A program made the translations under genes and the position numbers. Positions 35,564 through 60,231 of a stretch of DNA of 64,000 bases are shown here, in pieces. Positions within the stretch are counted from its first letter, which is position 1; every line of letters begins with the position of its first letter. Source of the DNA: Armatimonadota bacterium (GTDB lineage: Bacteria; Armatimonadota; UBA5829; JAUSEB01); contig JAUSGG010000227.1 in the NCBI GenBank assembly GCA_030649165.1, forward strand, positions 1-64,000. The letters are read 5' to 3'. A model generated the notes under the pieces. The model saw only the letters and a list, made by a program, of their open reading frames with translations. It did not search any database and was not told the origin of the DNA.

Positions 35564-35913
35564 AGCCCCTCCTTCTAACCTCTAACAAAATCGGGCGCGA
35601 ACCTCACCGCGCCCGAAATCCGATCGTCCGGGATCCCGCAAACCTCACAAACCTCGCCCCGCCAATCCCCTCCCCGCATCGGGGAGGGTTAGGGAGGGGT
35701 TCCCCGTTCACCGCTCACCGCTCGCTGCTCACTCCCAGCGCCTGTCATTCCGAGGAACGAGGAATCTGCTTTTTCCCGTTCACCGTTCCCCGCTCACCGC
35801 TCACTCCCAGCGCCTGTCATTCCCAGGAACGACGAATCTGCTTTTTCCCGTCCGGTATTCTAACTCCTAACTCCTAACTCCTAACTCCTAACTCCTAACT
35901 CCTAACTCCCCCC
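35564..35913. other. Repeat-filled gap in the phage block
   Basis: No gene. It contains one CCCCTCCCCGCATCGGGGAG palindrome (35668-35702), two TGTCATTCC.AGGAACGA.GA segments (35746-35780, 35816-35849) that equal the interior of the MITE at 52859, and at 35862-35910 six to seven tandem TAACTCC units. Confidence 0.65.

Positions 35914-51003: not shown

Positions 51004-51007
<4 letters not shown>
49967..51007 (-). CDS. Fic-family AMP transferase coupled to glnS
   Basis: A 346-residue protein with the intact motif [20 protein letters not shown] and a class II inhibitory motif in [17 protein letters not shown]. The N-terminal segment ([20 protein letters not shown]) and C-terminal winged helix ([20 protein letters not shown]) are standard. 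Its ATG overlaps the glnS stop by four bases, so it is probably translated from the glnS transcript. It is the first cassette after glnS and only distantly related to the second Fic gene, which argues against simple gene duplication. Confidence 0.92.
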
Positions 51008-52794
<1,787 letters not shown>

Positions 52795-52858
52795 GTAGAG
52801 TTCCTCTCTTAGTGATCGTGTGTCATTTTGGCATATTGGTGGGGGAAGGTCAAGGGAA

Positions 52859-53016
52859 GTAACAGTTCAGGAATAGGAAGTACGTGGCGCTGAATGTCAT
52901 TTCGGAGCGCCAGCGTAGTCGAGAAATCTGCTTCTGTAAAGTGGCCGGAAAAAGCAGATTCCTCGTTCCTCGGAATGACGTTGCCCGGCAGGTACTCACC
53001 ATTCCTGAACTGTTAC
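52859..53016. mobile_element. MITE copy 1 (158 bp, 8-bp target duplication)
   Basis: Ends GTAACAGTTCAGGAAT and ATTCCTGAACTGTTAC are perfect inverted repeats. The interior halves are also imperfectly complementary (GAGAAATCTGCTT against AAGCAGATTCCTC), so the element can fold back over most of its length. It is flanked by the direct repeat CAAGGGAA (52851-52858 and 53017-53024). GTAA ends and an 8-bp duplication fit the IS66 group. No transposase inside, so it is non-autonomous. Confidence 0.9.
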
Positions 53017-53059
53017 CAAGGGAAGAGTCGGAGGAGTCGAGCGAGTCGAGGGAAGCGGA

Positions 53060-53290
53060 AGGGGCCCGGCGGTTGAAACCTGCGCCCCGTTGATGTACAC
53101 GCGCCGTTCTCGGCGCTCGTAGCGCAGGCCGGCCTCAGCGCCCGTTCCTGCACGGCCGTCGCCTTGCCCTTCGAGCTTCGCCGCCGGCGTGTCGAGTTCC
53201 GGCGAGCGCAGGAGATGCAGTTCGGTCAGCCGGCGGCGCAAGTGGGCCCCCGACCACGTTCGCGTCAACCCGGCTTCATCTCGCATATTG
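53060..53290 (-). pseudogene. Fragment of a type ISP-like restriction/methylase C-terminus
   Basis: The minus-strand frame reads LRRRLTELHLLRSPELDTPA, then LRYERRERRVYINGAQ. This resembles the ending of N6-adenine methylase/helicase fusion proteins (HLL.SP.LD.P...., V.Y....RV.IN..QYF.GVP). After Q the expected YFEGVP is lost and the frame continues into the MITE. No catalytic part is present. Tentative. Confidence 0.4.
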
Positions 53291-53371
53291 GCGGAGGTTG
53301 AGGATATGGCGGAGGTGTTGGGGAGGGCGTTGAGAAGGGCGGGGATGCGGATGGCGTGAGTCAGATGTGGT

Positions 53372-54283
53372 ATGATTGGCAGGGAGACAAAGCACGTCAC
53401 GGCACATCTGCTGTTCGTAGATGAAAGTGGACAGGATCATCGTGAATCACCGTACGAGACGCTGGTCGGGATAGTAGTGGAGGACCGCGACCTATGGAAT
53501 ATGGTCCGAGCTATCCAATACGCCGAACTGAGCCATTTCGGAACGCCTTACAGTGCAGGCAGGAGGGAACTCAAGGGCAAGAAGCTTCTGAATCGGAAAG
53601 TCTTCCGCCTGGCGTCTCAACTCCCCGATTTTGGCGAGGAGGAACGCCGCTCACTAGCCCTGAGATGCCTGCGGAACGGCGAAACCGCTGGAAGGCGGGA
53701 GATGACTGCACTGGCTCAGGCGAAACTGGCGTACGTTCGGAATGTGCTGGATATCTGCGCGCAGCATCGCTGCAAGGCAATCGGGAGTATCGTGTTGAAC
53801 CCCGCAACATGGGGCCTGCCCGAAGAGATGCTTCGCAGAGATTACTGCTATCTGTTTGAGAGGTTCTTCTATTTCCTTGAGGATGTCGGACCTGAAAATA
53901 TGGGAATCGTGGTCTTCGACGAACTGGAGAAAAGCCGCAGCCACCTTCTGTTGGGTCAGATGGATCGCTATTTCAAGCTCAGCGCTAAGGGACGACAGCG
54001 GGCGGGGCAGGTGATCCCAGAACCCTTCTTCGTGCATAGTGATCTAACCACAGGCGTGCAACTCGCCGACCTCGCAGCTTACATCCTGTCGTGGGGTTAC
54101 CGCGATACGAGGAAAATGAGGAAACCAGCCCGTTCAGAGTTGGCCCCTTTTGTTAGTCAGGTATGTGGGATGCGATTTAGGGTATCGCGCGCGGTCGGTT
54201 CAGAGCAGAAAAGCAAGCCTGTTTGGAGCTTTGTTCTCATCCCCGCTCTTACCGCGGACAACACCTGCCCGGCCGGTACATAG
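53372..54283 (+). CDS. DUF3800-domain protein
   Basis: A 303-residue protein. DUF3800 pattern: LLFVDESGQDH near the start, a conserved acidic MGIVVFDELEKSRSHLL in the middle and GVQLADLAAYILSWGYRDTR near the end, an arrangement of acidic residues like that in RNase-H-fold nucleases. The family is frequent in phage and mobile regions, function not established. TGTGGTATGATT overlaps the ATG and could be a -10 box, in which case translation starts slightly downstream. Confidence 0.8.
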   Translation: MIGRETKHVTAHLLFVDESGQDHRESPYETLVGIVVEDRDLWNMVRAIQYAELSHFGTPYSAGRRELKGKKLLNRKVFRLASQLPDFGEEERRSLALRCLRNGETAGRREMTALAQAKLAYVRNVLDICAQHRCKAIGSIVLNPATWGLPEEMLRRDYCYLFERFFYFLEDVGPENMGIVVFDELEKSRSHLLLGQMDRYFKLSAKGRQRAGQVIPEPFFVHSDLTTGVQLADLAAYILSWGYRDTRKMRKPARSELAPFVSQVCGMRFRVSRAVGSEQKSKPVWSFVLIPALTADNTCPAGT

Positions 54284-57579: not shown

Positions 57580-58830
57580 GTGAGTCTTGATGATGGTGGT
57601 TTGAGTCGGAGGGAGTTCATCAAGGGTTCGGCAGCCGTTGCCGTCACCCTCGGCCTCGCGTCCGGCGTGTCCGCGCAACAGCCGGATGCCAGGAAGATCA
57701 GATGCGGCGTCATCGGGGTCGGCGTGGAGGGGTCGAGGCTCCTCAGCAAGCTTGTCCGGATCCCCGGCGTGAGAGTCCCCGCTATCTGCGACATCTATGA
57801 GCCGAACCTGAAGGACGGCTTGAAGATCGCCGGGCTCGCCCGTGGGTATGAGGACTACCGCTGGATGCTCGATCGGGACGACCTCGACGCGATATTCATC
57901 GCCACTCCACTGAACCTGCATGGCTCGATGGCGATCGATGCCATGAAGTCCGGCAAGCACGTGTTCTGCGAGAAGATGATGGCCTACTCGATAGACGAGG
58001 CCAAGGAGATGCTGCGCACCTCAACAGAGACCGGCAAGCGCCTTCAGATCGGATATCAGCAGCGCTACAACGCGATCTACAATCATGCCTACGAGCTGAT
58101 CAAGCAGGGAGTCCTCGGCAAGATCACACATGTCCGCTGTATGTGGAACCGCAATGGAAGCTGGCGTCGCGCCGTGCCCGATCAGAAGTACGAGCGCCTG
58201 TTCAACTGGCGCATGTATAAGGAGTACTCGCAGGGACTCATGGCCGAGCTTGGCAGCCACCAGACGCATGTCGTCAACTGGTTCCTCGAGAGCGTTCCTG
58301 TATCTGTTATGGGCTCAGGCGGAATCGACTATTGGAAGGACGGACGCGAGACCTATGACAACGTCAACGTCATCTTCGAGTATCCCGAAGGGGTCAGGCT
58401 CTACTTCCAATCGCTGACGACAAATCAGTATGACGACCATTACGAACAGTTCATGGGCGACAAGGGCACGCTGATTATCACTCCAGTCGGAGCGCGGCTC
58501 TTCCGGGAGCCGCAAGCCGAGCAGTTGACGTGGGGGGACGCCGCCCACAAGGAGAAAGCCGGCGGTAAGGAAGCCATTGTGCTCGATGCGGATGTCACCG
58601 CCAAGCTGAAGGCTCAGACGGGCGCAGGTGAGCAGATCGCCGCCGGAGAAAAGAACAAAGACGACTATATGTGCGAAATCGAGAGCTTTATTGCCTGCGT
58701 ACTGGAGAACAAGCAGCCGGACTGCGACGGTCAGGAGGGCCTCGAGTCCGCGGTGACGTGCCTGCTGGCCAACCAAGCCATGGCTCAGGGCAAGAAGCTC
58801 TTCTACAAGCCTGAGATGTTCAAGGTATAG
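57580..58830 (+). CDS. Gfo/Idh/MocA-family oxidoreductase with Tat signal
   Basis: A 416-residue protein from GTG 57580. Twin-arginine signal LSRREFIKGSAAVAVTLGLA. Rossmann fold: IRCGVIGVGVEGSRLLSKLV, then CDIYEPN, IATPLNLHGSMAIDAMKSGK and HVFCEKMM, the EKP-like motif in which lysine is catalytic. The C-terminal domain has ELGSHQTHVVNWFL and an acid-lined sheet. Family members oxidise or epimerise sugars with NAD(P). Exported members are common in polysaccharide degraders. Likely acts with the downstream DUF6807 protein. Confidence 0.9.
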   Translation: MSLDDGGLSRREFIKGSAAVAVTLGLASGVSAQQPDARKIRCGVIGVGVEGSRLLSKLVRIPGVRVPAICDIYEPNLKDGLKIAGLARGYEDYRWMLDRDDLDAIFIATPLNLHGSMAIDAMKSGKHVFCEKMMAYSIDEAKEMLRTSTETGKRLQIGYQQRYNAIYNHAYELIKQGVLGKITHVRCMWNRNGSWRRAVPDQKYERLFNWRMYKEYSQGLMAELGSHQTHVVNWFLESVPVSVMGSGGIDYWKDGRETYDNVNVIFEYPEGVRLYFQSLTTNQYDDHYEQFMGDKGTLIITPVGARLFREPQAEQLTWGDAAHKEKAGGKEAIVLDADVTAKLKAQTGAGEQIAAGEKNKDDYMCEIESFIACVLENKQPDCDGQEGLESAVTCLLANQAMAQGKKLFYKPEMFKV

Positions 58831-58861: not shown

Positions 58862-59064
58862 ATGCGTCGAAACGTAACAGTTCAGGAATAGGAAGTACGT
58901 GGCACTGAATGTCATTCCGAGCGGAGCGCCAGCGTAGTCGAGAAATCTGCTTCTGTAAAATGGCCGGAAAAAGCAGATTCCTCGTTCCTCGGAATGACGT
59001 TGCCCGGCAGGTACTCACCATTCGTGAACTGTTACGTCGAAACAAGCGCCTGATACTGACAATC
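58862..59064 (+). pseudogene. Displaced start region of the DUF6807 gene
   Basis: ATG 58862 is followed by CGTCGAAAC and then the MITE. Behind the MITE GTCGAAAC is repeated and the frame continues AAGCGCCTGATACTG. Removing the MITE and one GTCGAAAC gives MRRNKRLILTIMLLAICST, a proper signal peptide with a basic start. The 170 inserted bases shift the frame, so the old ATG no longer leads into the gene. Confidence 0.75.
58874..59035. mobile_element. MITE copy 2 (162 bp, 8-bp target duplication)
   Basis: Same element as at 52859-53016, about 93 percent alike by eye, with four extra bases (GAGCGGAGC). Ends GTAACAGTTCAGGAAT and ATTCGTGAACTGTTAC. Target duplication GTCGAAAC at 58866-58873 and 59036-59043. 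It lies between codon 4 and the rest of the signal peptide of the DUF6807 gene. Confidence 0.92.
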
Positions 59065-60231
59065 ATGCTTCTTGCCATCTGTTCAACCATCTGCCACGGC
59101 TCCGACCTCGAGGTCAAGGTGCGACTCCTGCCGGAGCATTCGGGCGCGGTCGTGCCTGTCTCCGTGAAGCTCGATGCCCCGGTCCCCGATCCGGGCCTGT
59201 ACTGCCTGCGGGATGCCTCGCGCGGCAAGCGCCTTCCCTTTCAGTACGATCGGTCCGTGGAGACAATCGAGTTCATGGTCGATGTTCCCGAAATCACCAA
59301 ACCGGTGACGAGAGTCTTCCGCCTGACACCGGGCGCTCCGGCGCCAGGCGACGGCGTCCGAGTCCGGAACACAGCCGACAAGTCCCTCGTAGTTGAGGAG
59401 GGGGACAAGCGGGTACTGGTCTACAACTACGGGTCGCTCCTGCCTCAGGGACTCCACCGGAATTACCGCAGATCCTGCTATATCCATCCGGTCTTCGGAC
59501 CGCGGGGTGAGTCGCTGACCGATGATTTTCCCGCGGACCACTACCACCACAGAGGCATCGCCGTGATGTGGACGCACGTCATCGTCGGTGGCAGGGATTA
59601 CGATCTGTGGGGGCTTAGCGGCATCAAGCCCCGGTTCAGCAAAGTCCTCGCGATGGAGGACGGCCCGGTATACTCCCTGCTCCGAGTCAACGACGGGTGG
59701 TATACAGACGAGGGTAACAGGGTGGTCGATGAGACGTGGACGGTGAAGACATACAGGTCGGGAGAGCATGGCCGGATCGTGGATTTCGACATCCTCCTGA
59801 AGGCGGTCGGCGAGCCCGTCACATTACGGTCGTCGGACAGAGGTTACGGCGGGTTCAACGTCAGATTCGCGCCGAGAGAAGACACCGTTGTGTTCTCCGA
59901 AAAGGGGGAGGTTCCGGCCGACGCCGACAAGGAATCATACCTGTGGAACGATCTCTCCGCGAAGTTCAAAGGCGCCGACGCGATATCCGGCCTGGCGGTC
60001 TTCGATAACCCCGGGAACGTGCGACATCCGCAGCCGTGGACTAATCGGCGCTACGGTTTGCTGAACCCGGCTCCGGCGGCAATCGAGCGTTTGACGATCA
60101 CGGCCGATCAGCCCCTGCGTCTCCGGTATCGGGTCTGGATCCACAAGGGCGATGTGAATGCGGGAAAAGTGGCGCAGGCGTATCGGGCGTATGTGAATCC
60201 GCCTGTTGTGGAAACGAAGGGGGACAAGTGA
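59065..60231 (+). CDS. PmoA-like (DUF6807) exported protein
   Basis: About 388 residues from ATG 59065; the open frame reaches back to 58909 in the MITE. The remaining signal peptide is MLLAICSTICHGSD. Characteristic DUF6807/PmoA features: DDFPADHYHHRGIAVMWTHV with the DH.HHRG motif, TWTVKTYRSGEHGRIVDFDI, GYGGFNVRFAPR and a late FDNPGNVRHPQPW. The family is linked to sugar oxidoreductases in polysaccharide degraders; its activity is not firmly established. Translation now must start at 59065 or inside the MITE, so export may be weakened. Confidence 0.8.
   Translation: MLLAICSTICHGSDLEVKVRLLPEHSGAVVPVSVKLDAPVPDPGLYCLRDASRGKRLPFQYDRSVETIEFMVDVPEITKPVTRVFRLTPGAPAPGDGVRVRNTADKSLVVEEGDKRVLVYNYGSLLPQGLHRNYRRSCYIHPVFGPRGESLTDDFPADHYHHRGIAVMWTHVIVGGRDYDLWGLSGIKPRFSKVLAMEDGPVYSLLRVNDGWYTDEGNRVVDETWTVKTYRSGEHGRIVDFDILLKAVGEPVTLRSSDRGYGGFNVRFAPREDTVVFSEKGEVPADADKESYLWNDLSAKFKGADAISGLAVFDNPGNVRHPQPWTNRRYGLLNPAPAAIERLTITADQPLRLRYRVWIHKGDVNAGKVAQAYRAYVNPPVVETKGDK

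Follow-up and report, generated by a model that had tools for sequence, protein, structure and literature searches.

Roughly 140 MITEs with 8-bp target duplications in an Armatimonadota genome, probably mobilised in trans by an IS66-family transposase of the ISBst12 group

The genome of an uncultured Armatimonadota lineage (assembly GCA_030649165.1) contains short, repeat-bounded elements that are very probably non-autonomous MITEs of the IS66/ISBst12 type moved in trans; their movement we infer from their ends, their flanking duplications and an IS66 insertion sequence (IS) in the same genome. Few bacterial mobile elements have been studied as little as MITEs, and here a likely MITE/IS66 pair is found within one genome, with about 140 MITE copies, clear duplications and relatives carrying end variants. 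The pair offers a direct test of which end bases an ISBst12-type transposase requires, and lets one ask how a MITE can originate if its core was not derived from the IS.

Two copies lie in the window, by which we mean the whole 64,000-nucleotide stretch analysed (contig JAUSGG010000227.1, positions 1 to 64,000). An earlier note, made from the sequence alone, had described both, under a title speaking of perfect ends, as IS66-like MITEs with 8-bp direct repeats, and direct reading of the sequence places them, with those repeats, exactly where it had put them, to the base:

52851..52858, no strand: target-site duplication left of copy 1, CAAGGGAA
52859..53016, + strand: MITE copy 1, 158 bp, family B (GTCATTYCGAG hairpin core), sequence read directly
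52859..52874, + strand: left terminal inverted repeat (TIR) of copy 1, GTAACAGTTCAGGAAT
53001..53016, - strand: right TIR of copy 1, 16/16 identical
53017..53024, no strand: target-site duplication right of copy 1, CAAGGGAA
58866..58873, no strand: target-site duplication left of copy 2, GTCGAAAC
58874..59035, + strand: MITE copy 2, 162 bp, family B, sequence read directly
58874..58889, + strand: left TIR of copy 2
59020..59035, - strand: right TIR of copy 2, one mismatch, GTAACAGTTCACGAAT
59036..59043, no strand: target-site duplication right of copy 2, GTCGAAAC

The description of the ends as perfect holds for copy 1, where the 16-bp TIRs match at 16/16 positions, and fails for copy 2, where they match at 15/16. 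Allowing up to three mismatches, the 16-mer end occurs four times in the window against 0.25 expected. Copy 1, which corresponds to the 162-bp type of family B less 4 bp, folds at -72.9 kcal/mol, where shuffled sequences give -42 +/- 4 (z = -7.9).

Copy 1 is situated between a glutamyl/glutaminyl-tRNA synthetase gene (51004-52794, - strand) and a DUF3800 gene (53372-54283, + strand), and copy 2 between a GFO/IDH/MocA oxidoreductase gene (57580-58830, + strand) and a DUF6807 gene with its likely ATG at 59065. Copy 2 thus stands directly upstream of the DUF6807 gene and may affect its expression. A 134-codon open frame (52996-53400, - strand) extends out of flanking DNA into copy 1; it is probably not a gene, and a Pfam search of the frame returned no match. 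Elsewhere in the window (35690-35840) a core-like stretch, GTCATTCCGAGGAACGAGGAATCTGC, is flanked by repeated CACCGCTCACCGCTC / CTCCCAGCGCC stretches, with no recognisable IS66-type ends in that interval.

The census was taken across the draft assembly (5.48 Mb in 266 contigs) from pattern counts, from selected genome stretches and from an unbiased 576-kb sample, consisting mostly of the starts of successive contigs chosen regardless of the element. With up to two mismatches allowed, the 16-base end is matched 138 times forward and 138 times in reverse genome-wide, against one and three for a reversed-pattern control, which puts the family at about 140 copies. The 576-kb sample contains 16 short end pairs, ten of them with an exact 8-bp duplication, and scales to some 150 per genome. 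Counting copies and their flanking duplications had been one of the checks proposed in the earlier note, and the count bears out its reading: an exact 8-bp duplication borders 41 of the 74 distinct short elements read, and the flanks match at six or more of eight positions in 54 of the 74. None of the 74 has a duplication longer than 8 bp. When flanks were offset by 1-10 bp, between none and two of the 74 matched at six or more of eight positions and no exact 8-bp repeat appeared. Where several partners were possible the best-matching one was taken, a slight bias towards matches that the offset controls suggest is small. From the intact duplications it is plausible that transposition was recent, where the note had written of recent or well-preserved transposition.

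The duplications vary from site to site, and no strong target-sequence preference was found among 54 sites (no more than 0.08 bit of information at any position). Insertions are mostly intergenic and avoid long open frames, 44% of insertion points falling inside open frames of at least 200 codons compared with 85% of random points. The elements thus have what is expected of MITEs: TIRs, many dispersed copies, a target-site duplication of constant length (8 bp), and a short length (131-380 bp, where about 100-400 is expected) without a transposase gene. Their strong hairpins, and mosaic interiors with swapped modules, would also suit structured repeats of the REP/BIME kind, which owe their spread to recombination or gene conversion and not to transposition. 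Recombination would not, however, create exact 8-bp repeats that differ between sites, present at 41/74 copies with none in the offset controls, and we give this account of the elements almost no credence, while allowing that recombination or gene conversion may still hold for the shuffling of interior modules.

A transposon origin for the MITEs is strengthened by a matching IS. The earlier note had suggested looking for a full-length IS with the MITE ends, and one exists in the same genome, a 1531-bp element of the IS66 family that is identical to the MITEs over its outer 13 bp. Only one IS66 transposase match above the Pfam cut-off occurs in the genome (PF03050, DDE_Tnp_IS66; 2.3e-40), near the end of contig C106, with GTAACAGTTCAGGGTT just outside its stop codon. 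The N-terminal part of the transposase is at the start of contig C60, which runs out into CCTGAACTGTTAC and then GCCGGTGC; the same eight bases, GCCGGTGC, precede the C106 end, such that both outer flanks of the IS are identical. The two contigs overlap perfectly over 141 bp, and joined they give the 1531-bp IS, with GTAACAGTTCAGGGTT at both ends (the second inverted) and an 8-bp duplication, GCCGGTGC, on either side. Because exactly 141 bases is what an assembler k-mer break would leave, we infer the contiguity of the IS across the contig break from this overlap; the matching flanks support it independently.

The IS has one open reading frame of about 460 aa and no other exceeding 150 codons on the transposase strand. 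Its product matches the NCBIfam model NF033517 (IS66 family transposase, 3.7e-74) above the cut-off, and in Pfam DDE_Tnp_IS66 (PF03050, 4.9e-40) and, below threshold, zf-IS66. It combines an IS66 DDE transposase, a single ORF without tnpA/tnpB, GTAA ends and an 8-bp repeat, and it is on account of the one ORF, the GTAA ends and the 8-bp repeat that it fits the ISBst12 group of the IS66 family. ISDge4, a member of that group that has been seen to transpose, has GTAACTGCTCAGCA/GTGACTACTCAGCA as its ends, together with an 8-bp repeat (PMC12898284). GTAAC-type ends (GTAACTGYTCAG..) and 8-bp direct repeats are features that the group shares with the elements described here, as it shares with the partner IS a single IS66 transposase of about 450 aa (PMC12898284); the MITEs differ from ISDge4 in having neither a transposase gene nor internal similarity to the IS.

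Agreement between the IS and the MITEs is confined to the ends. The outer 13 bp are identical at both IS ends, TIR bases 14-15 differ (..GGAAT in the MITE, ..GGGTT in the IS), and over positions 14-26 the two resemble each other weakly, with scores that about 1% of random sites equal. Past the ends, a comparison of the IS interior with the MITEs gave only chance matches of 11-15 bp. As the two have nothing in common beyond their ends, the MITEs are not internal-deletion products of this 1531-bp IS. The IS66-like reading is upheld with three qualifications: the difference at bases 14-15, the unrelated interiors, and a recency of transposition that is plausible at most.

Duplications of 8 bp are not unique to IS66, which leaves room for another transposase that duplicates 8 bp, such as one of the IS256 type, to have spread the MITEs, with the likeness to IS66 ends a product of convergence. 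An ORF judged from its sequence to encode an IS256-type transposase is indeed present on contig C153. No MITE ends lie near it: 3.2 kb of this locus (L072) contains no MITE-end match at up to four mismatches, and the IS256-type transposase was rejected as mobiliser. The IS66 locus, in contrast, has an exact 13-bp MITE-end match at its very end, and the same kind of end is found on IS66-type IS of several other genomes, so that convergence under an IS256-type mobiliser seems highly improbable.

Within the IS66/ISBst12 explanation itself, the mobiliser might be a close relative with exact GTAACAGTTCAGGAAT ends, lost or missing from the draft, to which the resident IS would be a cousin. This is a version of the main explanation and not its opposite, and we consider it possible, if rather doubtful. 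It is because bases 14-15 differ that a lost sister IS could have been the main mobiliser, and a single IS beside some 140 MITEs, in an assembly of 266 contigs where several MITE or IS ends fall at contig edges, leaves room for a cognate IS that was lost or never assembled. Against this, the resident IS has a complete transposase domain and an 8-bp duplication of its own, and MITE ends themselves vary at bases 13-15 among copies that have kept their duplications.

On the IS66/ISBst12 explanation, each MITE would be bounded by the recognition ends of a single-ORF transposase of this group, supplied either by the resident full-length 1531-bp IS or by a now-lost close relative. The transposase would recognise GTAACAGTTCAGG ends of about 13 bp together with a weakly conserved subterminal stretch, and would move the MITE in trans to mostly intergenic sites, where 8 bp of the target are duplicated. 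Framed by IS66-type ends, the hairpin cores would then be passenger sequence and not IS remnants. The ends, the duplications, the copy number, the matching IS, the intergenic bias and the family structure are observed; that the resident transposase recognises these ends, acts on them in trans and is still active are the steps of this scheme that reach beyond those observations.

Two main families of MITE have ends in common around strong hairpin cores that are unrelated to one another, and a few single element types have other cores. Family A comprises elements of 133-136 and 157-159 bp with the hairpin CCCTCTCCCTCAAGGGAGAGGGG; family B, to which both window copies belong, comprises the 158/162-bp elements and forms of about 260-380 bp, with arms GTCATTYCGAG...CTCGGAATGAC. 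At one locus (L004 1501-1804; G000:C102 77001-77304) 9 bp separate a 162-bp family-B copy from a 133-bp family-A copy. Their duplications, GTTGACCG/TTGACCGT, overlap, and one of the two elements probably landed within the duplicated target of its neighbour. In a further class of copies with the same core, GTGAGTTCAGTTTCGCGGGAAT, resembling an IS66-type end with altered outer bases, precedes the core (L137 near 216, L142 near 17001, and L143 near 2379 and 5838).

Many of the family-B copies of about 305 bp are the 162-bp type enlarged by a palindromic module of about 140 bp, CTAAKGAAGCGCCC...GGTCGGTTG, of which the genome holds at least 41 copies. At 15/15 aligned places the module follows CTC at one and the same position, and it is present in both arms of the GTCATTYCGAG hairpin and in MITEs with differing outer ends. 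The aligned places are:

L227 1501-1640, L230 1501-1640, L236 1501-1640 and 12 other places: examples of the module

This placement fits insertion with a 3-bp duplication (CTC), although the module may have inserted without one, and the module may be a second, site-specific mobile element or the product of repeated gene conversion. A module variant has the same ends and a different interior. Taking these families together, we tentatively propose, at a confidence a little short of evenly balanced, that one IS66/ISBst12 end type has repeatedly framed unrelated hairpin cores, yielding several MITE families without internal deletion of an IS, and that a second, separately mobile palindromic module of about 140 bp has in turn settled at one fixed position within the GTCATTYCGAG core.

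The general kind of element is known. Bacterial MITEs (PMC10969869), among them MITEPsy1 of Pseudomonas syringae (PMC3189936), are likewise small, mostly intergenic and present in several copies with TIRs and a target duplication, and are presumed to be mobilised in trans by IS with similar ends; MITEPsy1, unlike the elements here, has a 4-bp duplication and is tied to ISPsy2 (PMC3189936). ISPa75-fosZ (PMC12888890) similarly has IS66-type ends around DNA unrelated to transposition genes, but retains tnpA, tnpB and the DDE transposase along with a resistance gene, where the MITEs enclose a short non-coding hairpin core. MITEs of the IS66 family are seldom reported: the term IS66 is absent from a 2024 review of prokaryotic MITEs (PMC10969869), and no description of an IS66-derived MITE was found in the open literature, which, subscription coverage being thin, is weak evidence of novelty.

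Related elements and ends occur in other genomes. One genome of the same family (G001) contains elements of 133-156 bp with IS66-type ends and 8-bp duplications, and two of the same order (G010 and G011) have one element each with an exact duplication. IS66-type IS with the same end pattern are found in two further genomes (G002 and G003) and on a Dehalococcoidia chromosome (OX638345.1), where the related IS has GTAACTGTTCAGGGTT ends and an exact 8-bp duplication at two of three copies, with 7/8 positions matching at the third. The hairpin core joined to an IS66-type end was found in 3/291 genomes of the phylum to which the window belongs and as two single matches in 301 genomes of the phylum of OX638345.1, distributions that rule out this combination as a general bacterial feature. 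In genome G011 the GTCATTYCGA core is also joined to another variant of the end, in about 20 copies.
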